From an uncultured Christensenellaceae bacterium (GTDB taxonomy: Bacteria; Bacillota; Clostridia; Christensenellales; UBA3700), in assembly GCA_944380275.1 (NCBI GenBank), contig CALWHB010000008.1, forward strand, positions 1-48,698: a stretch of 48,698 nt of DNA. Reading direction: 5' to 3'. Under the pieces are notes generated by a model that had not been told where the DNA came from, searched no databases, and saw only the letters and a program-made list of their open reading frames with translations. Shown one piece after another: positions 1 through 48,698 of the stretch (its first letter is position 1; every line of letters begins with the position of its first letter). Position numbers and translations under genes: made by a program.

Positions 1-7
1 TGTACAA

Positions 8-58
8 AAAGTCGCGGAATACGAGGTTTGCATATGTATACGAATCCTCTGATTCCGC
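8..58 (-). terminator. Terminator of the polA-coaE unit
   Basis: On the minus strand, downstream of coaE, 7-bp arms (14-20 with 52-58) continue into a 4-bp inner stem (23-26 with 46-49) around a large loop. A run of five T follows at 6-10. The shape fits a Rho-independent terminator, although the loop is longer than usual. Confidence 0.5.
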
Positions 59-123
59 TGTGAAATTATTTTGCCGTATAGCTTTCAATGCGACGGACCG
101 TTATTTTTTATAAAGAAAATTGT

Positions 124-690
124 TCAACCCAATTCCTTGAGTTTTTTGATGACTTTTTCCTGCAGTTCTCTCAGACTGCCGTCGTTGCTTATTACGGTAT
201 GCCCTGCTTTTTTTCTGGTTTCGTCGTCGGGCTGATGCGCCATAATCATTTCCACTCTCGATATATCGCAGTTGTCGCGCGACACCACTCTGTCGACTCT
301 GTTCTGCTTGTCGCCGACTATCAGCCATACTTTGTCAAAGTAATCCTTGAGAATCCCTTCTTCAAACACCTGAACCTCGACAAACACCCTGTCTTTTCCG
401 TCAGTCAGTCTGTCCAGTTCTCTTTTTACGTAAGGATGAGCAATCGCGTTGAGTCCGTTCATTGCGTCTTTATCGCCGAGGACGGCTTTTGCCACCTTTT
501 TGTTGTCCACTTCTCCGTCGGTAAGCACGTTGCCGAATTTTGCGACAAGTTCTTCTTTGTATGCGGGATTTTTCTTTACGTCGCGATAAACCGCGTCGCA
601 ATCAATCACGGTTTCTCCGTGTTCCTTCAGCATTGCAAGCACCGTGCTTTTACCGCTGCCCACTCCGCCTATAACCGCAATTTTCATCAT
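124..690 (-). CDS. coaE: Dephospho-CoA kinase
   Basis: CoaE catalyses the last step of coenzyme A synthesis, phosphorylating the ribose 3'-OH of dephospho-CoA with ATP in the cytoplasm. The 188-residue protein starts with a P-loop (GGVGSGKST, residues 8-16), followed by the DCDAVYRD segment typical of the family. The length is slightly short of the usual 195-205 residues, with a trimmed C-terminus. The start codon overlaps the polA stop as ATGA and is preceded by GGAGG, so coaE is translationally coupled to polA. A polA-coaE order is common in Gram-positive bacteria, which supports the call. Confidence 0.95.
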   Translation of the reverse strand: MMKIAVIGGVGSGKSTVLAMLKEHGETVIDCDAVYRDVKKNPAYKEELVAKFGNVLTDGEVDNKKVAKAVLGDKDAMNGLNAIAHPYVKRELDRLTDGKDRVFVEVQVFEEGILKDYFDKVWLIVGDKQNRVDRVVSRDNCDISRVEMIMAHQPDDETRKKAGHTVISNDGSLRELQEKVIKKLKELG

Positions 691-3227
691 TTCGCCTCCA
701 ACCAGTTTTGTCCGCTGCCCACGTCGGCAATGAGAGGCACGTCCAGTTTTACAACTTCCTGCATACAGTTTTTAAGCAAATCGGACACCTCTTTTTCTTC
801 GTCTGCCGGGCAGTCTATAATCAGTTCGTCGTGAACCTGCATTATCAGTTTTGCGTTGTAGCCGCCTTTTTCAAGCCTTCTTTCGACTTCAATCATAGCG
901 GCTTTTATAATGTCGCTTGCCGTACCCTGAAGAGGCATATTCATTGCGACTCTCTCGCCGAAAGCGCGCGTCGCGTATATCGACGACTGCAGTTCCGGTA
1001 TATATCTCTTTCTTCCCTTGAGCGTGCGCACGTATCCGTTCGCCTTTGCAAACGCGACGCAGTCTTCCATAAATTGTCTGACTTTAGGGTACGTAGCAAA
1101 ATAGTTTTGCATATACTTTCTCGCCTGAGGCACGCTTATTCCCAAATCCTCGCTCAGTCCGAAGTCGCTTATCCCGTATATTATGCCGAAGTTGACGGCT
1201 TTTGCACTCCTTCTCATATCCTGCGTAACTTCGTCGAAAGGCACTCCGAAAAGTTTAGACGCCGTCGAACGGTGGAAGTCCTCGCCCTCGTTGAAAGCCT
1301 CAATCATAGTCTGGTCGCCGCTCATATGCGCCATAAGCCTCAGCTCAATCTGCGAATAGTCGCCGCATACGAGTACGTTGCCTTCTGCAGGCACGAACAT
1401 CTTGCGTATTCTCTTGCCGCTTTCTTTTCTTATAGGGATGTTCTGAAGATTGGGTTCTGTAGAAGAAAGTCTGCCCGTAGCCGTAACCGCTTGCTTGAAT
1501 ACGGTGTGAATCCTGCCGTTTTTGTCTATCAGCGGAATCATGCCGTCAAGATAGGTCGATTTCAACTTTACTATTTCCCTGTACTGAAGTATGGCGGGGA
1601 TAATGGGATGTTCGTTTTTGAGCGATTCAAGCACTTCGACGTTGGTAGAATATCCTGTTTTCGTCTTTTTTCCGTGTTTAAGTCCAAGTTTTTCAAAGAG
1701 AATTTTCGCAAGCTGCTGCGTAGAATTGAGATTGAACGCCTCTCCTGCAAGCGAAGTAATCTCCTGCGAAAGTTTGTTTATTTCCGCCGTGAGTTCAGTA
1801 TTAAGTTCGTCCAGATATTTTCTGTCCACCCTGAAACCTGCCTCTTCCATGGCAAAAAGCACGTTTACGAGAGGAAGTTCGAGTTCTCTGTATATCTCAT
1901 CCTGCTCTTTTTCCTTCATCTCTTCAGTAAGAGTTTTGTCAAGTTGTATCAGAGCGTACGCAAGATTTTCAGGGTCTTGTCCGTATGCGGAGGCAAGTGC
2001 GGCAAGCGTCTTGAAATTACGGTTGCTGTCGCACAGGTAAGCCTTGAGCATAACGTCGTCCGTTTTACCATCGATACCGATGCCGTAAGGTGAAAAGAGA
2101 TGCATATAAGTCTTTACGTCAAAGCATATCTTGCGCAGATTTTCGTCCTCAAGCAGAGGTTGAACCGCACGCAGAAAAGCGTTGTAATCAATGCCCTCTC
2201 CCAGAAGATTTTCTGCCGTTATTATTTCAAAACAACAGTCTTTTCCTCCGATAAATATGCGTGAAGAAACGTCAAAAGCGAAAACTCCGGATTTTTTTAT
2301 CCTTTCAAGTGCAACTGCAAGAGCGGTTTCGTCCTCAATCTTCTCTGCTTTCTCCGACTCTGTTTTTTCTGCCGACACCCCTTTGAAAGTAAGTCTGTCT
2401 GCAATCTTGTTGAACTCAAATTCAAGCAGAATATCTCTGACTTCGCTGTCAAACTCGTATTCAAAAGGCAAGTCCTCAGGCACGGTCGTCGTGGGACAAT
2501 CGCGGTCAATCGTGGCAAGCTTATAAGAAAGATACGCGCTTTCTTTGCCTTCTGTCAGTTTCTTGTTGAGCGCGCCTTTGGTTTCGTCAATGTGCGCGTA
2601 CACGTTGTCGAGAGTGCCGTACTGCGACAGCAGTTTTGTCGCCGTCCCCTCTCCTATTCCCGCAACGCCCGGAATATTATCCGAACTGTCACCCATGAGC
2701 GACTTGAGGTCTATTATCTGAGAAGGGGTAAACCCGTCCTCTTTAAGCCGCGCCTCGTCGTATTCCACGATTTCGGATATACCCTTTTTTGTCATCAGTA
2801 CGGTGGTTTTGTCGTCGATAAGCTGAAGACTGTCGCGGTCGCCGGTAACAATATATGTCTTGCAAGAACTTCTCTTTGAAAGAGTTCCCAGTATATCGTC
2901 AGCCTCAAAACCTTCAAGCTGCGCTATCTGCACGTTCATTGCTTTGAGCAGTCTTTTGAGCGGTTCAAGCTGAGATGCAAGTTCCGCCGGCATAGGCTTT
3001 CTCGTAGCCTTATATCCGTCGTACATCTTTTTTCTGAAAGTGGGAGCTTTGAGGTCGAACGCCGCCACGACGTAATCGGGCTTATACTTGTCGACGAGCT
3101 TTAAAAACATATTGACAAAGCCGAAAATCGCGCCTGTCTGTTGTCCCTGTCTGTTGGTCAGCGGAGGAAGAGCGTAAAACGCCCTGTTGATTAGTGAGTT
3201 TGAATCCAATAAAACGAGTGTCTTCAT
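687..3227 (-). CDS. polA: DNA polymerase I
   Basis: Family A polymerase that fills gaps and removes RNA primers during replication and repair. The 846 residues hold an N-terminal 5'-3' exonuclease/FEN domain (about 1-290, starting LVLLDSNSLINRAF), a middle 3'-5' exonuclease-like fold (about 300-470) and the polymerase domain with motif A (DYSQIELRLMAHMS), motif B (RRSAKAVNFGIIYGIS) and motif C (QVHDELI). In the middle domain the first metal site reads FAFDVSS: the usual D-x-E has lost its Glu, so proofreading is probably absent, as in several Firmicute PolA proteins. The gene starts its own transcript (promoter 3293-3321) and is coupled to coaE. Confidence 0.97.
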   Translation of the reverse strand: MKTLVLLDSNSLINRAFYALPPLTNRQGQQTGAIFGFVNMFLKLVDKYKPDYVVAAFDLKAPTFRKKMYDGYKATRKPMPAELASQLEPLKRLLKAMNVQIAQLEGFEADDILGTLSKRSSCKTYIVTGDRDSLQLIDDKTTVLMTKKGISEIVEYDEARLKEDGFTPSQIIDLKSLMGDSSDNIPGVAGIGEGTATKLLSQYGTLDNVYAHIDETKGALNKKLTEGKESAYLSYKLATIDRDCPTTTVPEDLPFEYEFDSEVRDILLEFEFNKIADRLTFKGVSAEKTESEKAEKIEDETALAVALERIKKSGVFAFDVSSRIFIGGKDCCFEIITAENLLGEGIDYNAFLRAVQPLLEDENLRKICFDVKTYMHLFSPYGIGIDGKTDDVMLKAYLCDSNRNFKTLAALASAYGQDPENLAYALIQLDKTLTEEMKEKEQDEIYRELELPLVNVLFAMEEAGFRVDRKYLDELNTELTAEINKLSQEITSLAGEAFNLNSTQQLAKILFEKLGLKHGKKTKTGYSTNVEVLESLKNEHPIIPAILQYREIVKLKSTYLDGMIPLIDKNGRIHTVFKQAVTATGRLSSTEPNLQNIPIRKESGKRIRKMFVPAEGNVLVCGDYSQIELRLMAHMSGDQTMIEAFNEGEDFHRSTASKLFGVPFDEVTQDMRRSAKAVNFGIIYGISDFGLSEDLGISVPQARKYMQNYFATYPKVRQFMEDCVAFAKANGYVRTLKGRKRYIPELQSSIYATRAFGERVAMNMPLQGTASDIIKAAMIEVERRLEKGGYNAKLIMQVHDELIIDCPADEEKEVSDLLKNCMQEVVKLDVPLIADVGSGQNWLEAK

Positions 3228-13067: not shown

Positions 13068-13352
13068 TTATTTTTTAGTATTATCAATTATTTTATCAAT
13101 AATTTCCGCAACGCCTTGACTTTGTTCAGCGTTATCTGCAGCAACCGTTTCTTCAGTCTTGTCCTGCACTTCCTGAGTCTGCCCCGCAGGCGGTTTGACT
13201 ATAAATCCGCTTACGGCGAGAAAGCCGAGAAACGCGGTGGTTATCTCCTGAAGATAAGGGATTTCAGTAGAAAATCCAACCGCCTGCAACACCACGAAGA
13301 GCGCGCTCGCTATAGCCATCCAGAAATCGTATGTTCTGATTTTGTCTTTCAC
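13068..13352 (-). CDS. Phage holin, phi-LC3-like
   Basis: Small membrane protein of 94 residues. The start is a GTG at 13352 with AAAGGAGG 5 nt upstream; the frame is open further but the ribosome site decides. It begins KDKIRTYDFWMAIASALF, which resembles phi-LC3/LL-H type holins (KxNxxxxxFW), with two hydrophobic segments (about 9-28 and 34-50) and a charged, glutamine-rich tail. Holins make the membrane lesion that ends a phage cycle. It is the last gene of the head operon. No endolysin is present beside it, which is unusual for a lysis module. Confidence 0.7.
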   Translation of the reverse strand: MKDKIRTYDFWMAIASALFVVLQAVGFSTEIPYLQEITTAFLGFLAVSGFIVKPPAGQTQEVQDKTEETVAADNAEQSQGVAEIIDKIIDNTKK

Positions 13353-13363
13353 GTTATCCTCCT

Positions 13364-13630
13364 TTATGCAGACGCTGCGCCTTCTTCCTGCTGAAGTTCG
13401 TTGTCCGCAAGTCCAAAGCCGCATCTTACGTCGTATTTTATTTCTTTTACGTCTTTTGCGACTTCTTTTACACAGCCAAGGCTATCCCCCAGCGACGCTA
13501 TCGTTTCCTGATACTTTTGTTCCCTCTTGCGACTGTCCTTCAGTTCGAATATAAGCAGCAGACAGAAAAGTATCGCCCACGCGCCGTTTGCGACGATTGC
13601 CTCCACAGCCGAGTCCCACATCTCTTTCAC
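13364..13630 (-). CDS. BhlA/UviB-type holin-like protein
   Basis: An 88-residue protein with one N-terminal membrane segment (NGAWAILFCLLLIFEL, residues 15-30) followed by the basic stretch KDSRKREQKYQETI and an amphipathic coil. This layout is that of the BhlA/UviB family, found in Bacillus prophages and beside clostridial bacteriocins and believed to act in release. It sits 11 nt upstream of the phi-LC3-like holin, so the element carries two different membrane-active proteins. Confidence 0.75.
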   Translation of the reverse strand: MKEMWDSAVEAIVANGAWAILFCLLLIFELKDSRKREQKYQETIASLGDSLGCVKEVAKDVKEIKYDVRCGFGLADNELQQEEGAASA

Positions 13631-13636
13631 CTCCGT

Positions 13637-14632
13637 TTACTTTGCGTCTTTCGCAAGTTTTACGTATCTTGCAAGCAACTTGCTGTACTCAAATCCGAGA
13701 TAGGTCTGAAGATAGTGATTATTAAGCACCATATCCTTTGCGGTCGCAGGGTCGAAACTATCGTAAAACGCTACGGCAATATCCAGTCTTTCTGCATAAT
13801 TGTCCGCTTTTTCACCGGTATAACCGTATTTTCTCTCGTTTTCAGCCTGTTGCAAATCCGCCTCAGTCTGACGTTTTACGTCTTCCTGTATCGCCTTTTC
13901 GCGTTCGAGTTTATAATCTGCAATCTGCTTGTCAATCTTGTTGTTGTATTCCTGGATAGATTTTATCTCTTTATCTCGTTTTGAAATAAGGTCTTCTATC
14001 TCAGTAGAAATCTTTATGACGTACTCCGCATTGAGGTCGTCAATCGCCGCCTGCAATTCTTCGTTGAGTCCGTCAATCTGAATCTGATATTTTTTTGCCA
14101 CATTGTCCGCATCGGCTTTTGCCTCTGCAATCATCATATCCGCCTGTTGCTGCGCGCTTTCCCCAATCAGATTTTTTATCGAAGAACGCGACAGTCCGCT
14201 TTCTATGAATTTGTTCTCGTTTGCCTTTTTATTTTTTTCAAGCGACGCGAGTATCTCGCTTTCCGTTTTGCCGTAATCGTAATAAGCCGACTCCGCTTTA
14301 TTTGCCAGCTCGTCAGTCTTTGCCTTAGTATCTGCGCTTACAAGCTGTTTTTCGCTTTCGAGTTTTTCGTTATAGTCCGACGTTACGCGGTTTTTTATTT
14401 CGTCTTCGCTTTCACCTTCGTAAGTCTTGTATTCATACTCGATTTCTTCAGGCAACGCTGTTTCTGCGCTTTCCTTGCGCTCGGCAAGTTCTTTTTGTCT
14501 GTAATCGCTGTGCATCTGTTTAAGTTTTGCGATAAGTTCCTCTTCTGTTTTTACGCCGCCTGTTTTGTCGTAACCTGCCCTGGTGCCGCTCTCATTGCGC
14601 ACGTGCATGGGCGACAATAAGTTTACGTTCAT
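13637..14632 (-). CDS. Long coiled-coil phage structural protein
   Basis: 331 residues, very rich in Glu, Lys, Asp and Ala, with coiled coil predicted by eye over about residues 30-270 (heptad-like Leu/Ile/Ala spacing) and a more globular C-terminus with YLGFEYSKLLARYVKLAKDAK-like sequence. No enzyme motif is seen. From its place after the neck genes and before the holins it could be a tail-needle or ejection (internal) protein, but this is inference. It could instead be a second scaffold-like factor. AAAAGGAG precedes the ATG by 6 nt. Confidence 0.55.
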   Translation of the reverse strand: MNVNLLSPMHVRNESGTRAGYDKTGGVKTEEELIAKLKQMHSDYRQKELAERKESAETALPEEIEYEYKTYEGESEDEIKNRVTSDYNEKLESEKQLVSADTKAKTDELANKAESAYYDYGKTESEILASLEKNKKANENKFIESGLSRSSIKNLIGESAQQQADMMIAEAKADADNVAKKYQIQIDGLNEELQAAIDDLNAEYVIKISTEIEDLISKRDKEIKSIQEYNNKIDKQIADYKLEREKAIQEDVKRQTEADLQQAENERKYGYTGEKADNYAERLDIAVAFYDSFDPATAKDMVLNNHYLQTYLGFEYSKLLARYVKLAKDAK

Positions 14633-14708
14633 ATATATCTCCTTTTTATGATGTAATAATTATATCGCGCAAATATCTTTCTGAGTGCGCGCTGAGCCTT
14701 TGAAAGTT

Positions 14709-15065
14709 TCATATTCTCAGTCCTCCTTTTGCCGTAACGCTCAATCTTATCTGATTAGCCGAAGATTTTGCGTCAAACGCAAGAATATGCCTGGTTCTCC
14801 CCAGTCCTTCTATTTCTTTTCTCCATATTCTGCCGCTCGAAGTATCCAGATAAGCATCGTCGAGCAACACGTCCACATCGCAGCAGTCCCCGAAAAACGC
14901 AAGTTCTATCACGATACTTCCCGTACACCACAGCGTTAATCTGTAAGGAGTTCCGGCATTGAGCGTATCGAGTATTCTGACAAATTCGACGTCGCGGCTA
15001 TTGTATACGTACTCTGCCGTTTCAAGAGCCTCTCTTGCCGTACGTTCGATTCTGGGAAGTTTCAT
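14709..15065 (-). CDS. Small phage neck-region protein, unknown
   Basis: 118 residues, unrecognised. It appears all-beta and compact, with a central DVEFVRILDTLNAG and a basic C-terminal half; no membrane segment or metal site is visible. Its ATG overlaps the stop of the beta-propeller protein gene as ATGA, so the two are made together, which suggests a structural partner in the neck. A 76-nt gap separates it from the coiled-coil gene. Confidence 0.6.
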   Translation of the reverse strand: MKLPRIERTAREALETAEYVYNSRDVEFVRILDTLNAGTPYRLTLWCTGSIVIELAFFGDCCDVDVLLDDAYLDTSSGRIWRKEIEGLGRTRHILAFDAKSSANQIRLSVTAKGGLRI

Positions 15066-16522
15066 TTGTTCCTCCTGTAAAAGTCAATCGTGATGCCGAA
15101 GGGCTTTATGCGTACGTCGCGCGCCGTGCATTTTATGTAGAAATCAAAACATAGTCCGCACGCGCTTATAGGAACATACTTGTCCTCCGGCTTAAGATAA
15201 TATTCTTTAGTCTTTCCGTCCGCTACGACTCCGAGGATAAAAGGCGTATCGGTGCAATAATCCACCCCTACGATATACTTTTTGTTTACGTGTTCGTTAA
15301 AGTCGACGTCGCGTATTGCCCAGTATCTGAAAGGCTGATTTGTGAAAAAACTTCCGCTGTCGTCAACTTCCGCAACGCAGTCGGACAGTCCGCTCAGAGC
15401 GACCACGCAATTCTGCCTCGCGCCGGAAAGCACGCACATATCGCTAAGCTGCGCTCCGCGGTATATTTCAGTCGTGCCTTTTTCAATATCCGTTACCGCA
15501 AGCACGTTGGGGTTCCCGTCGTCTTCAGTAAAAGAATATATGCCTTCTTCGTGTTCTTTTCTAAAGCTCAGCCAGTATTTTCCAAAGCAATAGAAAGCGC
15601 GCATATCTTCCGCACCGTCGGCAATTTCGTCCAGGCGGTCTGTAAGTTTTGCGACGTCGTAACCGTCCATGGTGTAGACGCCGTCGCTTGTTACGAACAT
15701 TACCGCCGCACCGCATACGGTTATCGTATCCTTATATATTCTGCCGCAGTCGCAATTCACTCTTTTTATGCTGAACTGCAGCTGGTCCGCATAAGCCGTA
15801 AGCCGGTAAATGCCGTATTCGCAGAATATAAAAATATAGTCTTCAAAACTAAGAACCCTCAGCACCTCTCCCAGAGAGCCGTCGAGAGAAATATAACCGC
15901 CCTCGTCAAGCGACACGTTCCAGTTATAAGGGTCGAAAGCGTCAGAAAACCATACGCTTGTTCTCGTTCCGTCCACGACGGCATAGACGCGCTCGTAATG
16001 AGTACACAAATCGGTTATCGCAAGAGCGTTGGCGGCAAACTCGCCTCCTTTGCCGCTCAAAACGTACAAACCGTCGCCTCCGCCGCCGAGCAGCATAAGG
16101 TCGTCTTCGCCGTGAAGGTAACCTATTGCCGAAGTGAACTGTCTGTCCATAGGTATATCATTTTCCCACTCTGCGCCGTCGCATAGCTTTATATAAGTAA
16201 ACTTATCCGGTGCAGAGAGAAAAAGGCACTCAAAAGGACCGTTTTCGTCGCTGAGTCTGCCAAAAAAAATACGCGCATCGCTGTAGCCGTCCGGTACGGG
16301 CGGAAGTTCGTATTCAGAACCGTCCGCGCATTTGCATGCAAACTTTCTCAATCCGGCACCTCCCGTCAGGCTGTTATGCTCAAAACCGAAATTATAGACG
16401 TCCTCACAGTAATCGCACGGCAGAGTGTTTACAGACGAGTCTGCATCAAAACCTCTGAACGACGAAAACCTATAGCGTTTTCTCACGGGTTTGTCCACAG
16501 AAAAGCTTTTTTCGTAAAACAT
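15062..16522 (-). CDS. Beta-propeller-like phage neck/hub protein
   Basis: 486 residues from the ATG at 16522, whose TGATG overlap with the upstream stop and GGGGGTGG site decide the start over a GTG three codons earlier. The sequence is a run of short beta strands with repeated blade-like units (LFLSAPDKFTYIK, MLLGGGGDGLYVLS, FIFCEYGIYRLT, MFVTSDGVYTMDG). Size, fold and position, right after a gp4-like adaptor, resemble the hub protein gp10 of P22-like podoviruses. That comparison is by pattern and order, not by alignment. Tail-completion or receptor-binding roles are possible alternatives. Confidence 0.55.
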   Translation of the reverse strand: MFYEKSFSVDKPVRKRYRFSSFRGFDADSSVNTLPCDYCEDVYNFGFEHNSLTGGAGLRKFACKCADGSEYELPPVPDGYSDARIFFGRLSDENGPFECLFLSAPDKFTYIKLCDGAEWENDIPMDRQFTSAIGYLHGEDDLMLLGGGGDGLYVLSGKGGEFAANALAITDLCTHYERVYAVVDGTRTSVWFSDAFDPYNWNVSLDEGGYISLDGSLGEVLRVLSFEDYIFIFCEYGIYRLTAYADQLQFSIKRVNCDCGRIYKDTITVCGAAVMFVTSDGVYTMDGYDVAKLTDRLDEIADGAEDMRAFYCFGKYWLSFRKEHEEGIYSFTEDDGNPNVLAVTDIEKGTTEIYRGAQLSDMCVLSGARQNCVVALSGLSDCVAEVDDSGSFFTNQPFRYWAIRDVDFNEHVNKKYIVGVDYCTDTPFILGVVADGKTKEYYLKPEDKYVPISACGLCFDFYIKCTARDVRIKPFGITIDFYRRNK

Positions 16523-17064
16523 CAGTACCACCCCCGCTCTTTTATCGTTACAGAGCCGACGGGTCTTGTGCAGGAACGCATATCCTGACGGAATCTTTCA
16601 GCAAAGCCTTCGCTCTGTTCGTACATACCGCTAATCATACAGTATTCGGCGCATGTACCGAGAGCGAGCGTTTTTTCACTGACGCGCGGGTCTACGTCGC
16701 AGTCGTCCCCTATCTCTGCCGTTGCCGGCACATACCGGTATCCGACGACAAGCGCACCGTTTTTTCTTACGTTGCACCAGAAGGATTTCTGCATGAATTT
16801 TACTTCGGCACCGTTTTCGTCTTTTACAGACGTGATTCTCAGCACTCTTCTCGGCACTTCGTCATAATAAAATCTGTTATTTTTTGCGACAACCCTGCAC
16901 TCGTCAGAAAGAGGCAGATATTCCTGCGCTATTTCAGTAAGCATGATATTTGCGCATTTTACAAGCAATCTGATTTTGTCGTCCTCCGCCTTGTCTTTTC
17001 CGACGTCGTAACCGTTTTCTCCCAGATACGCCAACGCGGTATTGATTACCTCTTCAAGTTTCAT
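16522..17064 (-). CDS. Head-tail adaptor protein, P22 gp4-like
   Basis: 180 residues from the ATG at 17064, placed after AAAGGAGG. It begins with a helix MKLEEVINTALAYLG, has a middle strand-rich part, and ends with helices (SEKTLALGTCAEYCMISGMYE) and an aromatic tail. Length, helix-rich ends and location directly after the capsid genes fit the adaptor that extends the portal ring (gp4 of P22, gp6 of SPP1/HK97 types). No catalytic motif is seen; P22 gp4 has a peptidoglycan-cutting activity, which cannot be assumed here. Confidence 0.55.
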   Translation of the reverse strand: MKLEEVINTALAYLGENGYDVGKDKAEDDKIRLLVKCANIMLTEIAQEYLPLSDECRVVAKNNRFYYDEVPRRVLRITSVKDENGAEVKFMQKSFWCNVRKNGALVVGYRYVPATAEIGDDCDVDPRVSEKTLALGTCAEYCMISGMYEQSEGFAERFRQDMRSCTRPVGSVTIKERGWY

Positions 17065-17106
17065 TTTGCCTCCTTTGACAAAGGGCGGATACACCGCCCT
17101 CCGTCT

Positions 17107-17424
17107 TTAAATCTTCAGCTTATTCAGCGTCTTTTCCACCGATTCCGCGATTGCGTTATTTTCTGCCAGCGCATTTTCACGCTCTATTTCCTCTATAATT
17201 TCGTCAATGCGCTCTATCCTCGTTTTGCGGACGTAGTCTACCGCGCGGCTGTCAAGACAGTCAAAAGGAATAATTACCTGAAGGCTGTCGTCAGCCGAGT
17301 TTCTGACCTCAAATTTTCCACTTTCCCCGTTATAGTAGATTTTGTATTTGTCGTCTATGCTCTTTATTCTGTCCGCAATCGAAAACAAATCGCTTTCAAC
17401 GGCAATCAGACGCCGCCCGTTCAT
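17107..17424 (-). CDS. Small phage protein after the major capsid gene, unknown
   Basis: 105 residues with a mixed N-terminal half (DKYKIYYNGESGKFEVRN) and a long acidic helix at the C-terminus (ERIDEIIEEIERENALAENN). The ATG overlaps the capsid stop as ATGA. The position suggests a capsid accessory or head-completion factor. I do not recognise the family. Confidence 0.6.
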   Translation of the reverse strand: MNGRRLIAVESDLFSIADRIKSIDDKYKIYYNGESGKFEVRNSADDSLQVIIPFDCLDSRAVDYVRKTRIERIDEIIEEIERENALAENNAIAESVEKTLNKLKI

Positions 17425-18590
17425 GCCGTGATACCCGAAAGCTTATACTGACCTATCGGCTTGTCGCATATAAGGTCGGCATACTTGACGAGAGTAGCAG
17501 CATATGTCGCGCTGCCCGCCTTTTGTTTGATAACTCTTCCGCCGTCGCCTTCAAGCCATCTCCAGTCGCAAAGCTGGTGCAATTTGAAATCGCCGGTGTT
17601 GAGCATATACATCGTGCCGTCCTCGACAAACTTATCCGCAACGACGGGTATTCCGTTGAACGTAACCGCCTTATAACCTCCGTCGAGATTCATGTAGTCG
17701 AGGTTCATACGCGCGCTCATGCAGTTGTCGAGGTAGAATCTTCTCACATCGTAAGCACATACAATCATATCTACCGTACCGCCTGCGGTTTCCTCAATCT
17801 CGTCAATCGCGCTCTGCATACCGACAAAAGAAATCGCGCCCACGTCGTTTTTGACGCCGCTCTTCATCCACTCTCTTCCCGTTCTCGAAAGCCCGTACAA
17901 GTCCTTATCGGAGAAGATTGCACCCAGTCCGGTAAGCTCGTTATCCTTGGACCCCTGAACGGTCATATAGTCGCCGCTTGTAACCGCCGCGCCGCTGACT
18001 CCGCCGAAAGTAACCGTCTTCGTTGCTCTGTCGATAGACGTTATTCTTACTCCTCTGAGTCCTTCTCTTACGGTATTCGCGCTGCCGTCGTATACGTCGA
18101 CGACCATACCTTCCATAAGGTTTTTCACGCTGGACACAATAACTTTATTGTTAGAGCCGCCCTGCGCGGTAACGGTAGCTATCTTGCCGCTGCCGTCGCC
18201 GTAAAGCATCCTGCCAAGGTTGAATTTGGACGCCTTGAGCAGTCCTTCCATTTCTGCGTCAAGCAGATTGACAAACGCGCCCACGCTGTTCTGCGACGCC
18301 CTTATCGCCTTGTCCGAAAGCTCTATCGTACCGTACAGGTTTTTAAGTTCCAGTCTGAAACGGTCGTAATTATTTGCCGCCGCCGCGGGAAGGTCGCCCG
18401 TTTCCGTTCCTGCTCCGATACCGCCGTTGAGTCCGTAAGGAACGAGTTTGACTATTTCCTTTCCCCATACGTCAGAACTCGTCTGCTTGATTTTGGCAAG
18501 CAGCGGGTTTACTCCGACGTTGAGCTGATTGGCGACGACTCCGAGATATACGGTTTTAAGAGCCTTTTCGGCTGTTTCCATTGTTACCAT
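17421..18590 (-). CDS. Major capsid protein, HK97-fold type
   Basis: 389 residues. The N-terminal part carries helices and the sequence GTETGDLPAAAANNYDRF followed by ELKNLYGTIELSDKA, the pattern of an HK97-like N-arm and E-loop. The middle holds a strand-rich insertion (VVDVYDGSANTVREG) and the C-terminal part the long spine helix and P-loop strands. There is no N-terminal delta/protease domain, in line with a separate scaffold gene upstream and no protease. It follows the scaffold gene by 3 nt, with GGAGG 9 nt before the ATG. Coat function is inferred from order, size and these patterns. Confidence 0.82.
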   Translation of the reverse strand: MVTMETAEKALKTVYLGVVANQLNVGVNPLLAKIKQTSSDVWGKEIVKLVPYGLNGGIGAGTETGDLPAAAANNYDRFRLELKNLYGTIELSDKAIRASQNSVGAFVNLLDAEMEGLLKASKFNLGRMLYGDGSGKIATVTAQGGSNNKVIVSSVKNLMEGMVVDVYDGSANTVREGLRGVRITSIDRATKTVTFGGVSGAAVTSGDYMTVQGSKDNELTGLGAIFSDKDLYGLSRTGREWMKSGVKNDVGAISFVGMQSAIDEIEETAGGTVDMIVCAYDVRRFYLDNCMSARMNLDYMNLDGGYKAVTFNGIPVVADKFVEDGTMYMLNTGDFKLHQLCDWRWLEGDGGRVIKQKAGSATYAATLVKYADLICDKPIGQYKLSGITA

Positions 18591-18593
18591 CTG

Positions 18594-19325
18594 TTAAATC
18601 CTCCTGTTTGCGAGCATATTTTTGACAATACCGCCTGCCTCGCTTATGCTCTTCGGGCGAGAAGGCGGCGTAACGTACGTTCTTCCGCTGCCGGCAATGA
18701 TTTCGGGAATACGTACGTCCATATTTTTTCGGAGAAATTCTGCGATTATCCTGTCCTTTACCTTTTCGTTGTTCATAACGTACTTCTCGATAAATCCGTC
18801 GTCCGATGCGAGTTCTTCATATGGTCTGTCCACGTCGAGAAGAACTTTGAAATATGCCTTTTCAAGGCAATCACCGCCTATAGATATTTCAGGATTGGAC
18901 GCAAGAACTCTTGCGATGTTCTGAATATATCTCTGTGCGGAAGGATAATCCTTCATAAACTTTTCTACCTTTTCGTCCCAGTCAGGCAATTCGTACGCGG
19001 GAGTTGTCGCCGCTCCGCCGTTGTCTACCGTCGGCAAATCATTTTCCTGCCCCTCCGGCCGCGGCGCGTACGGCTCTCCGCACGATTGCTCTTGTGATTG
19101 CTCTTTTGCCTGGCTCAGGTCCTGCGCGTGCTGCAAAGCCTTTGTCAGTTCAGAGTTCTGCTGGCACTTTCTGGTAAACTCTTTCTGCAGGCTGTCGTAT
19201 GCCTTCTCAAGTTCGCCTGCCGTAGCAAACTTGTTGCAAAAGGCGGGTTTCCCCTTGTCCGCGACTTCAACGCAATCGTTGCCGCCGAGGGGGAGAGATT
19301 CCGTTTGTTTTTGCATATCTTCCAT
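18594..19325 (-). CDS. Phage scaffolding protein
   Basis: 243 residues, acidic and Gln/Glu-rich. There is a coiled-coil stretch at about 35-75 (ELEKAYDSLQKEFTRKCQQN) and a low-complexity linker, then an amphipathic helix block ending in a short basic tail NMLANRRI, the usual site where scaffolds touch the coat protein. Its position between portal and major capsid matches P22 gene 8 and similar systems. The protein is probably used during assembly and not kept in the particle. Confidence 0.75.
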   Translation of the reverse strand: MEDMQKQTESLPLGGNDCVEVADKGKPAFCNKFATAGELEKAYDSLQKEFTRKCQQNSELTKALQHAQDLSQAKEQSQEQSCGEPYAPRPEGQENDLPTVDNGGAATTPAYELPDWDEKVEKFMKDYPSAQRYIQNIARVLASNPEISIGGDCLEKAYFKVLLDVDRPYEELASDDGFIEKYVMNNEKVKDRIIAEFLRKNMDVRIPEIIAGSGRTYVTPPSRPKSISEAGGIVKNMLANRRI

Positions 19326-19344
19326 ATATTTCTCCCTGTAAGTC

Positions 19345-21228
19345 TTATTTATGTTGCTGCTCCTGCGACTGAGCAGAAGTCTGAGAAGTCGCCATAAGTG
19401 CGAACATCTGATGTTCTTTTATATGTGCGTCCATCTCTTTGTATAGTTTTTCGTCTTTAAGCACGCTGTCTTCGAGAAGACATTTCACGTGTTCCTCTAT
19501 ATGCAGTCCGTGGTCGTCGTAAGGACAAGCGCACAGCATTTCCTTTCCCAGCGCGAGATTTTCTCTCATAGCGCGCTTTCTCTGAGTTTCGTCCACGTCT
19601 TTCGCGCTTTCCCAGTTTCCTATTCCCAGCATTTCGAGAACTTTGACTTTTGTACGGGGACTCATAGTTCCGTTTTCTTCTGCAAGTACGCCCATGCGGA
19701 TAAGTTCGAGTACCATATTGCGCTTTTCGGTTGCCGTTTCGGTAACGTCGTCGCTGGTATCAAACACTATATCCTCGCATTGCAGGTCGTTTCCCGTAAA
19801 ATAAGTGAGTTCCGGTTCTCCGTTTTCTCCTGAAATCCGCTTTAATCTCTTTTCTGTCGCAAACTGCTTATAGAGATACAGCAGCATCCTGCACACTCTT
19901 TTTATACACAGCCTGAGAGAAGTGGTTGAAAGCGACATGCGCGTATCGTCCTGATTGACGAGAAGTGATATTGCCTTACCGGACATATTACCGTAAGTCT
20001 GAGAATATTTGCTCAGCTCGCTCACTCCGCTGACTGTAACAAACTCGCTGAGAAGTCTTTCTTCTTCGTTGCTGAAATCTGCAGGAACGCTGCCCGTTTC
20101 TATAAAACGCGGGATATTAGACCCCTGACGGTATATCAGAACTTTGCCCGGAGAAAGTCCTTCTTCCTCCAGATTGTCCATATCTACGCTGCCGTCTTCC
20201 ACAGCGAGAATACCCATAGAAATGCGGTTGAGATATTCGTGTTTTCTGTTCTTCACGGCATTGTAACTGCGCTGAAGAGGAATAAGCCTTTCCACTACAG
20301 AAGTACCGAAAAAACTTCCGACTTTTTTAATGCAGTTTGTCTGTGCAAAAGGAAACCCTTTTCTTCCGGCAACGTCTGTTACGTAAGGCAGACCTCCGCA
20401 ATACAGCAATTTATCTCCTGCTATTATCACGAGTTCTCCGTCGGGCTTTTCTTTTGAAGGTCGCGTATATCTCTCTATGACTACCGCATATCCGTCGACC
20501 TTTGAAGATATTACGTTCCCTACGCTGGCGTTATATCCCAGTCCACCGGCAACGGCGGCGTTGTCCAGGGTAAATACGTTGACTTCTTCGCCGTCAACTT
20601 CAACTCCCCACCTGTCCTTTATTTCTTCGACCGGATACGCTTTTGCATGTATGACACTCAAGCACTCTTCAAGCGAACCGGCACACACGTTGTCAGGAAA
20701 TATCTCAAACGGGGGTACAACGGTAATCCTCGCCTCTCCTACACGGACAGGATTTTTTTTGCTGTCAGTACCCAGCAGGTCGCCTGCGTTCTTATCCCAC
20801 GTTACTTTAAAAAAGCAACTGCCTGCAACTTCGCTCCACGCGACGGCGTCGTTTATCAGAGAAGGCAGTTCGTTCTGCTCTGCGACCGCACTTATAAGCG
20901 ATGTGGACAATTTTGCAGACTGAATATCGCTTTCGTCGTTTGAAAAGGGTCTTACCGTTACGCCTGTATTCACTCTCACAAGCTTTGACATACGGGTTTC
21001 AAGGACAGAAACTATATGATTGTATACCTCTCTTTCCTGCCAGAAATACTGTTTTCCGAATTCCTGTACGTCGCCCGTAGGCATAATCTGCATATACTGA
21101 TTTCCGTTGACGAAATTCATATTCAGCTGCCATTGAAGTTCCAGCGGTTTTCTGTCCTCTCTTCTTCTGTCGTAATCTTTTCTCACTTCTGCAACGACGT
21201 CTTCTGCAAAGAATTTACCTTCTCTCAT
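19345..21228 (-). CDS. Phage portal protein, P22-like
   Basis: 627 residues from the ATG at 21228, which overlaps the upstream TGA (ATGA) and has GAGAGG 5 nt ahead; a GTG two codons earlier is possible. The N-terminal block LELQWQLNMNFVNGNQYMQI and NHIVSVLETRMSKLVRVNTGV are typical of podovirus-type portals. The wing and stem regions follow, and a Gln-rich end (QTSAQSQEQQHK) forms the crown or barrel. Portals form the dodecameric ring through which terminase pumps DNA. The size is close to the P22/T7 class and larger than HK97 portals. Confidence 0.82.
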   Translation of the reverse strand: MREGKFFAEDVVAEVRKDYDRRREDRKPLELQWQLNMNFVNGNQYMQIMPTGDVQEFGKQYFWQEREVYNHIVSVLETRMSKLVRVNTGVTVRPFSNDESDIQSAKLSTSLISAVAEQNELPSLINDAVAWSEVAGSCFFKVTWDKNAGDLLGTDSKKNPVRVGEARITVVPPFEIFPDNVCAGSLEECLSVIHAKAYPVEEIKDRWGVEVDGEEVNVFTLDNAAVAGGLGYNASVGNVISSKVDGYAVVIERYTRPSKEKPDGELVIIAGDKLLYCGGLPYVTDVAGRKGFPFAQTNCIKKVGSFFGTSVVERLIPLQRSYNAVKNRKHEYLNRISMGILAVEDGSVDMDNLEEEGLSPGKVLIYRQGSNIPRFIETGSVPADFSNEEERLLSEFVTVSGVSELSKYSQTYGNMSGKAISLLVNQDDTRMSLSTTSLRLCIKRVCRMLLYLYKQFATEKRLKRISGENGEPELTYFTGNDLQCEDIVFDTSDDVTETATEKRNMVLELIRMGVLAEENGTMSPRTKVKVLEMLGIGNWESAKDVDETQRKRAMRENLALGKEMLCACPYDDHGLHIEEHVKCLLEDSVLKDEKLYKEMDAHIKEHQMFALMATSQTSAQSQEQQHK

Positions 21229-21443
21229 ACGCACCTCTCTTCGCTCTTCTTATTGAGTACGTTTTTGGGACTCTTTGGCGTAATCAGTTTGCCGATTTGT
21301 TTATACAGTTCTTTCACGCAGTCTTCGCACAGATTGAGAGAATTCCTGCTGTCGCCTCCTTGTGCGACAAACTGATACGACGCATTGTTTTTACACGTCG
21401 GCATCTCGCATTTTGTTTTTACTCCCAGTTTTTTTACCTGCAT
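21225..21443 (-). CDS. Small four-cysteine zinc-binding protein
   Basis: 72 residues with CEMPTC near residue 12 and CEDC near residue 39, four cysteines spaced as a zinc ribbon or treble-clef knuckle, and a basic C-terminus. The ATG lies inside the end of the previous gene (53-nt overlap), with its own AAAGGAGG. Its place between terminase and portal suggests a nucleic-acid-binding helper in packaging or regulation; the function is not known. Confidence 0.65.
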   Translation of the reverse strand: MQVKKLGVKTKCEMPTCKNNASYQFVAQGGDSRNSLNLCEDCVKELYKQIGKLITPKSPKNVLNKKSEERCV

Positions 21444-21711
21444 TTTCTGCCTCCTTTTTATTTATCTTCTCAAGCTCTTCGAGCAATCGTTTTTTGAGTT
21501 CGCAAAGCTGTTCGTCGGTATATCCTGCCAGAGGATTTTCTGCCGACCTCTCAAGCACTGCTTTTATCGCAGCGGTATCCGGCGGTATGTATTTCTTTGA
21601 AATCTTTCTCTTTGTTACTTCGTTTTCTCTGTCATATTCTTCGACTTTTTCTTCAACAAAGTACCCCGTAGCTTTTTTCAGCAAAATACTGTCAATTTTC
21701 TTTTTAGTCAT
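21391..21711 (-). CDS. Terminase-small-subunit-like C-terminal domain protein
   Basis: 106 residues, very basic and acidic. The segment KKATGYFVEEKVEEYD followed by KKYIPPDTAAIKAVLER recalls the C-terminal part of Firmicute phage small terminase proteins, whose YVPPD-x-A-I motif is similar, but the usual N-terminal helix-turn-helix is missing. It begins within the terL stop (ATGA) and so comes after terL, an unusual order. It might be a truncated or split small subunit, or an unrelated packaging helper. Confidence 0.5.
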   Translation of the reverse strand: MTKKKIDSILLKKATGYFVEEKVEEYDRENEVTKRKISKKYIPPDTAAIKAVLERSAENPLAGYTDEQLCELKKRLLEELEKINKKEAENAGKKTGSKNKMRDADV

Positions 21712-23135
21712 AATCTCTTCCGCCTGAGTCTGTTTATCAGTTTATCCTTATCGCGCTGTATCATCGTTTTTTCTTCTTTCGGCATTTTAGCCGGTTCGGG
21801 TTTTGTCATTATATAATATCTCAGCGCGTCCAGCGCATGGTCGTCTTTCTTAATCGGTCTGTCGCCGTTTCCCCACCAGTACGATTTAAGTTCTCTTATC
21901 AGATTGACGCAACAGGGAAAAATCCTGATTCTGTCTGTCAGAAAATAGGATTTCACTCTCGCTATTCCGCTGAAAAGGTCTTTATCTACTCTCGTATTGA
22001 CAGCTATTCCCCTTTCAAAAAACAAATCCGCGATGCTCTTCGCGCTTGCAAGAGTCTTCTGAGTCGCCGCGCTGTCTATGAGTGCCTCAAGTCTGCCTTT
22101 TCCGTCGCGGTGCCAGTTCAGCGCGTCAGCCGTTTCAAATATCTTTTTTGCGTGATAATCTATATCTTTGCCTGCCTCATACCACTCGCCTACCACGTAT
22201 ATAACGCCGTCGTAATCGGTAGCGAAAAACAAACATGCAAGCGGATTGTTCAGTCCCGGGTCGATACTGATATTGTCCTGCCAGTCGAAAGGTACTTCAA
22301 AAGGCGTTTCCAGCACATGCCTTGACGGGTCAAATTCTCTGTAAACGATTCCTTCTGCCGCACTGAACTTTCCGTAACGCCTTGAATTGAGCGTTTCTTC
22401 GTCCATACTTGCGGTCAATGCAGCGACTTCTTCAGAGTCGAGAAAGGGATTGTCCGCCCACTCCATCTGTGAACACCAAATCTCTTTGTCTTCTCCGCTG
22501 TTGAGATAAATAAGGTCATAAACCCACGTCAGACCTTTCAGTGGCGTCATAGTCCCCCAAATCTCGCCTTTGCGGTCAAGCACTCTCATCCTGCACTCCT
22601 GATAGACGTCGAGAGGAGGTTCTTCGTCAAACCAGACGAAATCGAGCGAAGTACCCTGAAATTTCTCTCTGCCCTGGTCGCAGCTTTTGAAACTCACTTT
22701 GGATATTCCGCCCGAAACGTTTTTTATCAATATATAGTCGATTATGCCGTACTCCGCGCTCTCCTTTCTGCCTGAAGACATAACGACGTCTTCAATCCAG
22801 TCGGGATTGAGATAAGAAAGAAACTTTGCCTGAGCGACGTCCCTCTGCACCTCGTAGGACAGCGACACAATCCACCCCTCGGTCGCGCCTCTGTTCTTTC
22901 TGTAAGGATGTATTCCTCTCGCCCACCATATCGCCTCAACCGCGCCGCACTCCGTCTTTCCGCTCCTGTTCCCGCCAAAGACCCAGCGATTGCGCTTAAG
23001 ACATTTATGAAAAGCCATCTGCTTTTCGTGTACCTTTTCTCCTGTGTTATAGCGCGCCAGTCTGTTGTTGTTTTCTCTCCTTTTTTGTTCTCTCTCTATT
23101 GTCAGAATCTTCGCAAGTATGTCTTTTTCTGTCAT
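21708..23135 (-). CDS. terL: Phage terminase large subunit
   Basis: DNA-packaging motor, 475 residues. The ATPase half has Walker A GGNRSGKT (residues 54-61) and Walker B LDFVWFDEE (about 164-172); the nuclease half carries the acidic metal-site residues in SIDPGLNN, ALIDSAATQ and KKDDHALDALRYYI, all retained. No frameshift is visible, so packaging could be active. It is the first gene of the leftward head operon; GGGGGGA lies just before the ATG. The next gene upstream runs the opposite way, leaving a 125-nt divergent region for promoters. Confidence 0.95.
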   Translation of the reverse strand: MTEKDILAKILTIEREQKRRENNNRLARYNTGEKVHEKQMAFHKCLKRNRWVFGGNRSGKTECGAVEAIWWARGIHPYRKNRGATEGWIVSLSYEVQRDVAQAKFLSYLNPDWIEDVVMSSGRKESAEYGIIDYILIKNVSGGISKVSFKSCDQGREKFQGTSLDFVWFDEEPPLDVYQECRMRVLDRKGEIWGTMTPLKGLTWVYDLIYLNSGEDKEIWCSQMEWADNPFLDSEEVAALTASMDEETLNSRRYGKFSAAEGIVYREFDPSRHVLETPFEVPFDWQDNISIDPGLNNPLACLFFATDYDGVIYVVGEWYEAGKDIDYHAKKIFETADALNWHRDGKGRLEALIDSAATQKTLASAKSIADLFFERGIAVNTRVDKDLFSGIARVKSYFLTDRIRIFPCCVNLIRELKSYWWGNGDRPIKKDDHALDALRYYIMTKPEPAKMPKEEKTMIQRDKDKLINRLRRKRL

Positions 23136-25654: not shown

Positions 25655-25655
25655 C

Positions 25656-26432
25656 TTATTCTTCCGTCTTTGCGTAATCTATATAATTTTTCTTGTTTCC
25701 GTAAGGGTCTGTAATTGCGGCAAAGTTGAGATATCTGCCCAATTCGAAAGCCTTCCAGGGAGAAACGTCCTCAGGAGGATAAGCGATATACGCAAGTCTT
25801 TCACCCGTTGTAGGATGTGTAAAGCGCAGTACAGTAGACCAAAGGGCGAGTTTGTGTTTAAGAGTACGCTTGTCCGCACCGTATTTTGCGTCTGCGAAAA
25901 GCGGCGTACCGTTGAAAGCCATCTGTGCGCGAATCTGATGCGACCTGCCGGTAATCAGAGATACTTTGACAAGCGAAAAATCGTTCAACGTCTGCAATAC
26001 GCTGTATTCCAGTTCTGCTTTTTTCGCGCCCTCTGTCATCATAGGAACGATAGCGACGGTATTTGTCTTTTCGTTTTTCTTGAGATAATGCGTAAGATGT
26101 CCGTTGAGAGGCTTAGGCTCTCCGCATGTAACGCAGAGATAAGTTTTCTCAAAATCGCCGTTTTTAATAGCGTCGCAAAGCCTTTCCGCGGCTTTTGACG
26201 TACGGGCAAACACCATAAGTCCGCCGGTAGGCCTGTCCAGTCTGTGAACGAGTCCGACATAGACGTTGCCCGGCTTGTCGTATTTGTTTTTTATATATTC
26301 TTTGACGACAGAAAGCATGTCGGGGTCGCCTGACTCGTCCGCCTGGGAAGGGACGTTCTGCGGTTTAACCACGACAATGATATGATTATCCTCATATAAA
26401 ACCGTCAAATCCTTATATCCGAAATCGGTCAT
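25656..26432 (-). CDS. RNA pseudouridine synthase, RluA family
   Basis: 258 residues from the ATG at 26432, which overlaps the upstream stop (ATGA) and follows GGAGG; the frame extends eight codons further. It has the catalytic HRLDRPTGG block, whose Asp attacks the uridine, then LVFARTSKAAERL-like sequence, and the GRSHQIRAQM motif. There is no N-terminal S4 domain, as in the RluA/TruC-type smaller members. The target uridine in tRNA or rRNA cannot be read. It is followed immediately by the DpnI gene, so both are on one mRNA. Confidence 0.9.
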   Translation of the reverse strand: MTDFGYKDLTVLYEDNHIIVVVKPQNVPSQADESGDPDMLSVVKEYIKNKYDKPGNVYVGLVHRLDRPTGGLMVFARTSKAAERLCDAIKNGDFEKTYLCVTCGEPKPLNGHLTHYLKKNEKTNTVAIVPMMTEGAKKAELEYSVLQTLNDFSLVKVSLITGRSHQIRAQMAFNGTPLFADAKYGADKRTLKHKLALWSTVLRFTHPTTGERLAYIAYPPEDVSPWKAFELGRYLNFAAITDPYGNKKNYIDYAKTEE

Positions 26433-27292
26433 TTTGTCCTCCAAAGTCCGCTGCATCCGCAGGGTAAAATAATATTCTCATCGGTCGGCAAGCCCAGTTC
26501 GTAAGACTCAAAAACACCGCCCTTTCCTTCGAGGCACAGCCTCAGTATATTTTCAGTAACCGTAGGCTGAAGACCCGTGGTATAAGAGTTGATAAGCACA
26601 AAAAGAGGCTTGTCGGAAAGCAATTTTACGCACTCTTTGACAAAGTCGTACAGATTGTCTTCCAGTTTCCATACTTCCCCGTTCACTCCTCTGCCGTAAG
26701 AAGGCGGGTCCATGATTATTGCGTCGTAACTGTTTCCTCTTCTCAGTTCTCTCGCGACGAATTTTGAGCAGTCGTCGACGATATATCTGATTCTGTCGGC
26801 GGCTATTTCAGACAATCTCGCGTTTTCTTTAGCCCTGTCGACCATAGCTTTAGCCGCGTCGACGTGAGTAACGAAAGCCCCTGCTTTGGCGCATGCGACG
26901 GTAGCTCCGCCGGTATAAGCGAAAAGATTGAGAACTTTGATTTCCCTGTTTTCGCCGGCAATGAGGTTTTGCATAACGTCCCAGTTGGCGGCTTGTTCGG
27001 GGAAAAGCCCCGTGTGCTTGAACCCCATAAGTTTGAGAGAAAACTTCAGTCCGTTTCTACCAATCGTAAAGTTTTCAGGCACGTTTCCCTTATACTGCCA
27101 GCTGCCGCCTCCGCTCGAAGAGCGTTTATATACCGCGTTTATGCCTGGATAAGAAGAAAGTTTGCTTTTCTCTTTCCATATAATCTGCGGGTCAGGGCGC
27201 AGGAGTACCAGCTTGCCCCAACGCTCCAGTTTCATACCGTTGCCTGTTGCAAGTATGCGGTAATCCTTCCAGCCCTCTGCTACGCGTATCAC
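26429..27292 (-). CDS. Class I SAM-dependent methyltransferase, RlmI/RlmK-like
   Basis: 287 residues starting with GTG one base after the ileS stop. The Rossmann fold has motif I LNLFAYTGGATVACAKAGA and motif IV MDPPSYGRG, typical of the rRNA and protein methyltransferases related to RlmI/RlmL. The N-terminal part is strand-rich but not a complete PUA domain. The DPPSYG motif suggests RNA as the substrate, with the exact base unknown. It is coupled to ileS and to the pseudouridine synthase, giving a translation-related operon. Confidence 0.85.
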   Translation of the reverse strand: MIRVAEGWKDYRILATGNGMKLERWGKLVLLRPDPQIIWKEKSKLSSYPGINAVYKRSSSGGGSWQYKGNVPENFTIGRNGLKFSLKLMGFKHTGLFPEQAANWDVMQNLIAGENREIKVLNLFAYTGGATVACAKAGAFVTHVDAAKAMVDRAKENARLSEIAADRIRYIVDDCSKFVARELRRGNSYDAIIMDPPSYGRGVNGEVWKLEDNLYDFVKECVKLLSDKPLFVLINSYTTGLQPTVTENILRLCLEGKGGVFESYELGLPTDENIILPCGCSGLWRTK

Positions 27293-48054: not shown

Positions 48055-48243
48055 TACCTGTTTTGACAAGAGGCAAAATGTTTTTAAGTGTTATAAAAAA
48101 TCATATTACGCAAGCAGACCGTCCGTCGCACGTCCATTTGATAAATATAGCCGCGTTTTACGCTCACGGGCAGGAAAAAATCAACTCAATCGCTTTTTAT
48201 ATGACGATTATCTCAAAAACAGTGAAATTATTATTTTGAAGAC

Positions 48244-48276
48244 AAAAAGACAGCCCCGCTAAGGAGCTGTCTTTTT
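48244..48276 (-). terminator. Terminator after the leucine-rich repeat gene
   Basis: AAAAAGACAGC (48244-48254) pairs with GCTGTCTTTTT (48266-48276). The T-run on either strand fits a bidirectional terminator. Confidence 0.88.
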
Positions 48277-48293
48277 GAGTTAAATGTCGTTTT

Positions 48294-48698
48294 TCAGGCT
48301 GATTTCTTCCAGTCCTCAAACAGGTACCGGTCTGTAAGATAGTCCGCCGCAGTCGCAGGGTCAGAAATCGCATCTGCGCTTATCTCCGCTGCGTCGCTGT
48401 CAAAATCGTATACGCTCCAACCGTTGACGTCTGCAAAAATCACGCTTTCCACACCGCAATCTTCAAAAGCGGAACCTGATATGCTCACAACCGAAGAAGG
48501 AATCGTTACAGACTTCAGATTTGCACAGTCAGCAAATGCGTAATATATGATTTTCTCAAGCCCTTCAGGGAGAACGATTTCTTCGAGAACACTTCCCTCA
48601 AAGCAATGCCAGTCAAGAGTTTTTACGCCCTCCGGTACGGTAAACGATTTTTCCTCTTTACCGCTTGCATAACGGTACATAACAGTTCCGTCCTTTGA
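48294..48698 (-). CDS. BspA-like leucine-rich repeat protein, C-terminal part
   Basis: Only the last 134 codons are inside the window; the frame is still open at the edge (SKDGTV lies before the first Met at 48680), so the Met should not be taken as the start. LRR_5 repeats are clear: FTVPEGVKTLDWHCFEG, LEEIVLPEGLEKIIYYAFADC and LKSVTIPSSVVSISGSAFEDC. The C-terminal tail is a short non-repeat segment. Such proteins are usually secreted surface adhesins or binding proteins of gut bacteria; signal and anchor cannot be seen here. Confidence 0.8.
   Translation of the reverse strand, partial: SKDGTVMYRYASGKEEKSFTVPEGVKTLDWHCFEGSVLEEIVLPEGLEKIIYYAFADCANLKSVTIPSSVVSISGSAFEDCGVESVIFADVNGWSVYDFDSDAAEISADAISDPATAADYLTDRYLFEDWKKSA

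Follow-up and report, generated by a model that had tools for sequence, protein, structure and literature searches.

Why should a bacterial contig lack the tetranucleotide GATC from end to end, and is a gene that it carries the reason? The questions are raised by contig C8 from the draft genome of an uncultured Christensenellaceae bacterium (1,780,867 bases in 75 contigs, 89.8% complete), and the window analysed here is this whole contig of 48,698 bases. A preliminary description of the window had reported GATC as absent, had pointed to a gene for an orthologue of DpnI, the endonuclease that acts on methylated GATC (Gm6ATC), and had proposed that the loss was tied to this enzyme. The loss was found to run through the genome and the DpnI orthologue looks intact, but the link between the two turned out to be weak. 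The chromosome is without nearly all GATC and also without most copies of seven other restriction-site-like motifs.

Loss of GATC from the window and the genome

A program count gave 0 GATC in the window, exactly as described, against 125.2 expected from trinucleotide counts (maximum-order Markov model), 184.5 from base composition and 192 when the density in 12 stretches of eight genus-mates is taken as the standard. Composition or codon choice was rejected as a cause on the Markov expectation, in agreement with the preliminary description, whose comparison sites were found in their places (GTAC at 2-5, TCGA at 3424-3427, CATG at 5545-5548). The absence concerned a phage-type cassette (0 versus 31 expected) and the remainder of the window (0 versus 94) alike, as had been claimed. 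CTAG was also missing from the window (0 versus 21.3 expected) and GGCC was found 7 times (104 expected).

The genome-wide counts cover 1,489,299 of the 1,780,867 assembly bases, about 0.29 Mb lying outside. GATC was found 70 times in this part against 4113 expected, so that the near-null extends beyond the window and the genome is nearly free of the site. The majority of the remaining copies, 61, were located within 11 islands comprising in total 21 kb, and 9 were found elsewhere, where about 4050 were expected. One of these nine lies inside a tRNA-Met gene, where change may be limited by function; no rRNA motif was matched in the 1.49 Mb examined.

Within its genus the loss of GATC is restricted to this lineage. 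All 12 other genomes of the genus had GATC at 0.68 to 1.36 of expectation in samples of 7 to 20 kb. In the GyrA tree the genome and eight other species form a supported clade (fork 100/100; the order inside the clade is not settled), and its gyrA contained no GATC, compared with 4 to 17 in the other eight members, one of whose gyrA was partial.

Orthologous sites were compared using stretches from 8 of the 12 genus-mates, with mean identities to this genome of 77 to 81.5%. Alignments shorter than 300 bp and overlapping alignments were dropped; the stretches themselves partly overlap, and the sites are therefore not independent. Out of 622 aligned GATC sites only 4 were kept here, while GTAC kept 33% and TCGA 31%. 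Among the lost sites 450 differed by one base, at all four positions, and 168 by more. The single changes were G>A (91), C>T (85), A>G (75), T>C (67), G>T (57), C>A (43) and others (32). Loss through one particular base was rejected, since changes had occurred at all four, which points to selection and not to a single mutational process. A modification or repair process specific for GATC that converts the site is thus very improbable. It would agree with G>A and C>T being the most frequent single changes, but A>G and T>C follow closely, many changes are transversions, and no base change is common to the eight motifs. We give even less credence to an assembly or library artefact removing reads with the sites, as might be suspected in a draft of 75 contigs and 89.8% completeness; where relatives can be aligned and within reading frames, substitutions are seen in place of the sites, and eight unrelated motifs are involved.

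The avoidance is visible in codon usage as well, in tallies based on crude picks of open reading frames (ORFs); the set of 1151 ORFs considered below was picked in an equally crude way. After G, the isoleucine codon was ATC in 30 of 7401 cases, whereas after each of the other bases ATC accounted for 1331 to 3001 codons. Aspartate before C was written GAT in 20 of 2432 cases, and serine after NGA was never TCN (0 of 247), compared with 62% elsewhere. By our estimate a 2Ns of about 6 per site would suffice for 9 of the approximately 4050 sites outside the islands to be left, so a very small per-site cost would be enough in a large population. The branch is long, with dS to three relatives mostly above 1.

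Seven further motifs and the islands that retain them

The wider purge was first seen by word count against the genus-mates. At orthologous sites this genome kept 2 of 310 GAGAC, 3 of 383 GAAGC, 0 of 180 GAATG, 1 of 111 RGCGCY, 3 of 216 GDGCHC, 2 of 132 CYCGRG and 1 of 137 GTSAC, i.e., 0 to 1.5%, compared with 27 to 33% for ordinary words (median kept fractions 0.326 for 488 five-mers and 0.269 for 1645 six-mers). These fractions were hardly altered on leaving out G275, the relative sharing most of the avoidance. By count the seven motifs were at 0.02 to 0.26 of the Markov expectation, and outside the islands the five motifs that were counted there, GATC among them, were at about 0.2 to 4%. 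In the window, with expectations taken from the density in stretches of the eight genus-mates, GAGAC occurred once (91 expected), GAAGC twice (107), GAATG and RGCGCY not at all (56 and 33), GDGCHC three times (66), CYCGRG eight times (38) and GTSAC five times (40). RGCGCY matches the site of HaeII, GDGCHC that of Bsp1286I, CYCGRG that of AvaI, GTSAC that of Tsp45I and GAGAC that of BsmAI; GAAGC and GAATG as such are not the site of any enzyme known to us.

Gapped, Type I-like motifs were rejected as part of the purge, since none stood out at orthologous sites among the patterns represented by 70 sites or more. No fewer than 8 different gapped patterns were kept at 0.03 or less, but they were scattered, with 72 to 100 sites each, and none of those listed was at zero. 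The affected sites are accordingly ungapped, bipartite ones are spared, and the under-representation is strong both against the Markov expectation and against the relatives, which is the picture looked for in avoidance of Type II sites.

In the 12 genus-mates, with both strands counted, 72 of the 84 values for the seven motifs were at least 0.6. The lower values include RGCGCY in G299 (0 of 44 expected), GTSAC in G294 (11 of 46), CYCGRG in G168 (7 of 20), and GAATG (4 of 38), GAGAC (20 of 90) and GAAGC (35 of 104) in G275. Parts of the purge other than GATC may thus be shared with G275 or have arisen in parallel, while the loss of GATC belongs to this lineage alone. GGCC and CTAG were low in nearly the whole genus and do not belong to the change in this lineage. 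GGCC was at 0 to 0.25 of expectation in the window and in all 12 genus-mates sampled, and low also in most samples from the family, except G059 and G222; its avoidance is older.

The islands were defined as clusters of at least five motifs with gaps up to 800 bp, and their high density is partly due to this selection. Ten of the 11 carried GATC, and every one of these ten also held one or more of the other four motifs counted. The density of the five motifs was 7.6 per kb in the pooled islands, 9.85 in the genus-mates and 0.12 outside the islands. The islands fit recent import or, in part, assembly joins, the latter being considered because five of them have a border no more than 0.6 kb from the end of a contig. 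Sequence in which the purged motifs survive is likely to have been imported recently, which makes the motifs a sharp tracer of gene transfer.

Two of the stretches that retain motifs were looked at by gene content. Part of an operon for ribosomal proteins (genes from rplD to rpsC, identified by eye; C10:31750-34159, L192:11750-14159) stands out from the rest of the genome in having, within 2.4 kb, 10 GATC along with 13 copies of other purged motifs. Its identity was 92-94% in seven of the 12 genus-mates and 79-81% in three, with no match in two; it is either a homologous import or an assembly chimera, and the identities do not separate these. A restriction-modification-like locus (C28:16469-21100; L129, L207) is un-purged and low in GC (0.28-0.33 for two methylase ORFs), with a predicted N6 methylase-like protein, a predicted C5 methylase and a possible endonuclease (HNH by eye). 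The stretch L206:6754-8404 holds a pair resembling the AbiEii/AbiEi toxin-antitoxin, again by eye.

The islands bear on the proposal of the preliminary description that self is told from non-self by absence of the site. The sites are indeed nearly gone, but their use as a self label is unlikely. In the fuller form of this idea, restriction would work without methylases, a site-free chromosome being the label and solitary endonucleases cutting incoming DNA without partner enzymes. Of the 1151 ORFs only 2 resemble DNA methylases, and these share an island; several motifs were purged together, and DpnI is such a solitary enzyme. Nevertheless, no second endonuclease was seen by eye among the listed low-GC and island ORFs, apart from the possible one at C28, the lists being otherwise not profile-scanned. 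Furthermore, the islands, if real and not assembly joins, argue against any active endonuclease that cuts regardless of methylation, since it would cut them. Methylase-free restriction is therefore highly improbable, and hardly better are the chances of its wider consequence, that solitary enzymes can be carried, systems gained or lost without self-killing, and DNA restricted whatever its methylation.

DpnI and other restriction systems as possible sources of the avoidance

DpnI as the reason for the loss was examined across the order. There, whole-genome counts of AGATCG in 297 genomes, uncorrected for composition, were used as a proxy, with near-null set at less than 20 per Mb. DpnI was over the cut-off in 9 of the 297 (16 at E 0.001). 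Near-null genomes numbered 17, and only the present one carried DpnI (Fisher P 0.42); eight of the nine DpnI genomes were thus not near-null, and 16 of the 17 near-null genomes had no DpnI match over the cut-off. Three of the 17 belong to family f28, whose genomes of about 1 Mb are low in AGATCG throughout. The median was 155 AGATCG per Mb with DpnI and 469 without (one-sided P 0.064), and the association within genera was not significant (permutation P 0.22). DpnI as a general driver of near-null GATC was rejected on this comparison. Six genera of the order hold members both below 20 and above 300 by the proxy, and such genera are places to look for unrecognised GATC-cutting systems.

A narrower role is conceivable, in which stray or invading methylation of the Dam type, from phage, mobile elements or the methylases of relatives, would mark GATC, DpnI would cut, and a small per-site cost would result. 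Within the genus both dpnI (1 of 13 genomes) and the GATC purge occur only here, the key residues of DpnI are conserved, and among the five motifs counted outside the islands the purge has gone furthest for GATC (9 of about 4050). Dam-family methylases were found in two genus-mates and three other family members (5 of 7 D12 proteins over the NCBIfam cut-off). Low GATC also accompanies the gene elsewhere: seven of the eight other DpnI genomes were at 0.21 to 0.70 of expectation in samples of 5-20 kb, and four named DpnI loci found by a scan of contigs had GATC at 0.23 to 0.68. According to the available part of PMC4687349, GATC is scarcer than expected in 38 of the 42 genomes that have DpnI-like genes. 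The authors of that paper call this surprising and propose as explanations either mismatch repair or exchange between strains that differ in methylation.

Against this stands G204, a DpnI genome with GATC at 1.34 in a 20-kb sample. Low GATC was as common without the gene. Of the 16 DpnI-free genomes sampled from the rest of the family beyond the genus, 13 were at 0.78 or less; the comparison of relatives suggested in the preliminary description thus found DpnI genomes mostly low and DpnI-free family members equally so. The seven other motifs, which DpnI is not known to recognise, were purged as completely, and the GATC-bearing islands and tRNA gene persist. None of the DpnI mutants tested cut non-methylated DNA, as given in the available part of PMC4117772. 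Taken together, we consider it doubtful that DpnI drove even the GATC part.

The explanation that we prefer, with a probability of roughly 0.58, is that the near-total avoidance of eight motifs was driven by a number of Type II restriction systems that circulate among relatives and that this genome has since lost or encodes outside the 90%-complete assembly. Under orthodox restriction-modification an occasional unmethylated site would be cut, giving a small per-site cost, and along a branch as long as this one selection could remove sites by ordinary substitutions until almost none were left. DpnI would be a separate single-gene acquisition, later or contributing to the GATC part only, and would not be needed for the pattern, though it could add to selection against GATC. 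It could be carried at no risk because the chromosome is GATC-free and unmethylated. That systems circulate among the genus-mates and family members is suggested by their avoidance of some of the same motifs, i.e., RGCGCY in G299, GAATG and GAGAC in G275, and GATC in G098. The last-mentioned is one of two genomes among 46 in the family with DpnII (G098, G317), each next to a D12 methylase; in G098 this methylase is of the Dam family and GATC was found at 0 of 53 and 3 of 50 expected (6 of 208 with both strands counted). As far as the available part of PMC4687349 goes, sites of orthodox Type II systems are as a rule those avoided, and a genome can go on avoiding a site, as a trace, after the system itself is gone.

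Several observations weigh against circulating Type II systems as the cause. The assembly gave no match to D12 (PF02086) or N6_N4 (PF01555) methylases, nor to DpnII or MutH/Sau3AI, and its one C5 methylase lies inside the C28 island. Seven of the 1151 ORFs had methylase-like motifs, and the two DNA methylases recognised among them by eye are both in that island; the assembly is thus nearly free of DNA methylases. No system for any of the eight motifs was identified in it, the seven other than GATC not having been searched enzyme by enzyme. For all systems to be lost or missed, either a single island carrying several of them must lie outside the bin or the losses must be recent; had the systems been lost long ago, sites should be returning. 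In several relatives carriage of GATC-type genes does not go with avoidance, since GATC was at 1.26 and 1.40 in the genus-mate G080 and in G180, which have MutH matches, and at 1.29 and 0.98 in the genus-mates G297 and G303, which have a Dam-family methylase. Conversely, G143 (GATC 0 of 37 and 0 of 41 expected) and G115 (3 of 57) are near-null with no match to DpnI, DpnII, MutH or D12. Finally, in the available parts of the literature searched there was no chromosome in which the avoidance of as many motifs was comparably complete.

The missing systems could lie on a single unbinned island, as the clustering of C5 methylases in relatives suggests; contig C33 of G180 has four within 16 kb, together with its MutH match. 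In G143 predicted C5 and N6_N4 methylases were matched, and in G115 an N6_N4 methylase, none with an assigned specificity. Over 40 kb of G143 (L047, L078), GATC was found at 0 of 78 expected; this genome has either an unrecognised GATC system or the trace of one. Another family member, G130 (L046, L255), had GTAC at 0 of 57 and CTGCAG at 0 of 25 expected in 25 kb, both strands counted.

Restriction-site avoidance is already known, and the present cellular chromosome, from which eight motifs have almost vanished and whose assembly has scarcely a DNA methylase, is an extreme case of it. The Type II site avoidance in the available part of PMC4687349 likewise concerns palindromic and asymmetric ungapped sites, includes avoidance without a matching system in the genome, and includes low GATC with DpnI-like genes; it differs from the present case, where the loss is near-total and the assembly holds almost no DNA methylases. 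Such a chromosome lets one ask how small the per-site cost of restriction systems is, how long avoidance survives the systems, and whether a site-free chromosome escapes addiction to them.

The dpnI gene and its neighbourhood

The DpnI orthologue reported in the preliminary description was recovered at full length, and its features and surroundings are listed in Table 1. Both domains scored over the curated cut-offs, the catalytic domain with 240.1 bits (cut-off 26.7) and the winged-helix domain with 107.7 (23). PADLOC mREase_II gave 300 bits and NCBIfam no match, and the alignment to the solved R.DpnI gave 263 bits. Nine residues were compared, with numbers placed on the 4esj alignment by our own count. 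Catalytic D53, E64 and K66, methyl-pocket L129, R135, W138 and G140, and winged-helix K229 and R231 were all identical (roles according to the available part of PMC4117772). The protein accordingly looks intact, as judged from its sequence.

Table 1. Features of the window, with positions and strand
Feature	Position	Strand	Basis or remark
GATC-free stretch	1..48698		whole window = contig C8
dpnI, predicted 256-aa DpnI orthologue (PF06044 + PF17726), GC 0.39, itself without GATC	24884..25654	-	profile and alignment
Insertion holding dpnI	24837..25659		unaligned interval versus three syntenic genus-mates
RluD-like pseudouridine synthase	25656..26456	-	named by eye; conserved flank of insertion
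Sigma-70 region 4-like regulator	24070..24711	-	weak family match; other conserved flank
Phage-type cassette (coat, portal, terminase, holin-like, others)	13068..24711	mostly -	GATC-free

The interval with dpnI measures 815-826 bp here, compared with 178, 339 and 231 bp in three syntenic genus-mates, in which tblastn found no dpnI. The gene is therefore a single-gene insertion between the regulator gene and rluD. DpnI was over the cut-off in this genome only among the 13 of the genus, with a weak match below the cut-off in G080. No GATC-adenine methylase accompanies it in the assembly as far as PF02086 and PF01555 are concerned, leaving aside the N6 methylase-like ORF at C28.

Pneumococcal DpnI works without a GATC-free chromosome. 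The orthologue described here shares both domains and the catalytic and methyl-pocket residues with R.DpnI (Type IIM, methyl-directed; PDB 4esj, 4kyw), whereas GATC is almost gone from its chromosome. The alternative DpnI and DpnII cassettes of pneumococcus have a likeness in G098 and G317, which carry DpnII next to a D12 methylase, while this genome has DpnI. In contrast to those cassettes, dpnI is here a lone insertion beside rluD, and the corresponding interval in the three relatives (178-339 bp) is too short for a DpnII cassette.

A recent prophage was rejected as the cause of the GATC-free cassette, since, as far as it was covered, the cassette has conserved, syntenic counterparts in three genus-mates. 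Its coat, portal and terminase genes were 86-96% identical there, and their dN/dS of about 0.02-0.06 (dS saturated) was like that of adjoining housekeeping genes. The cassette looks domesticated and is perhaps gene-transfer-agent-like. Its scaffold-like protein was less conserved (58-64%).

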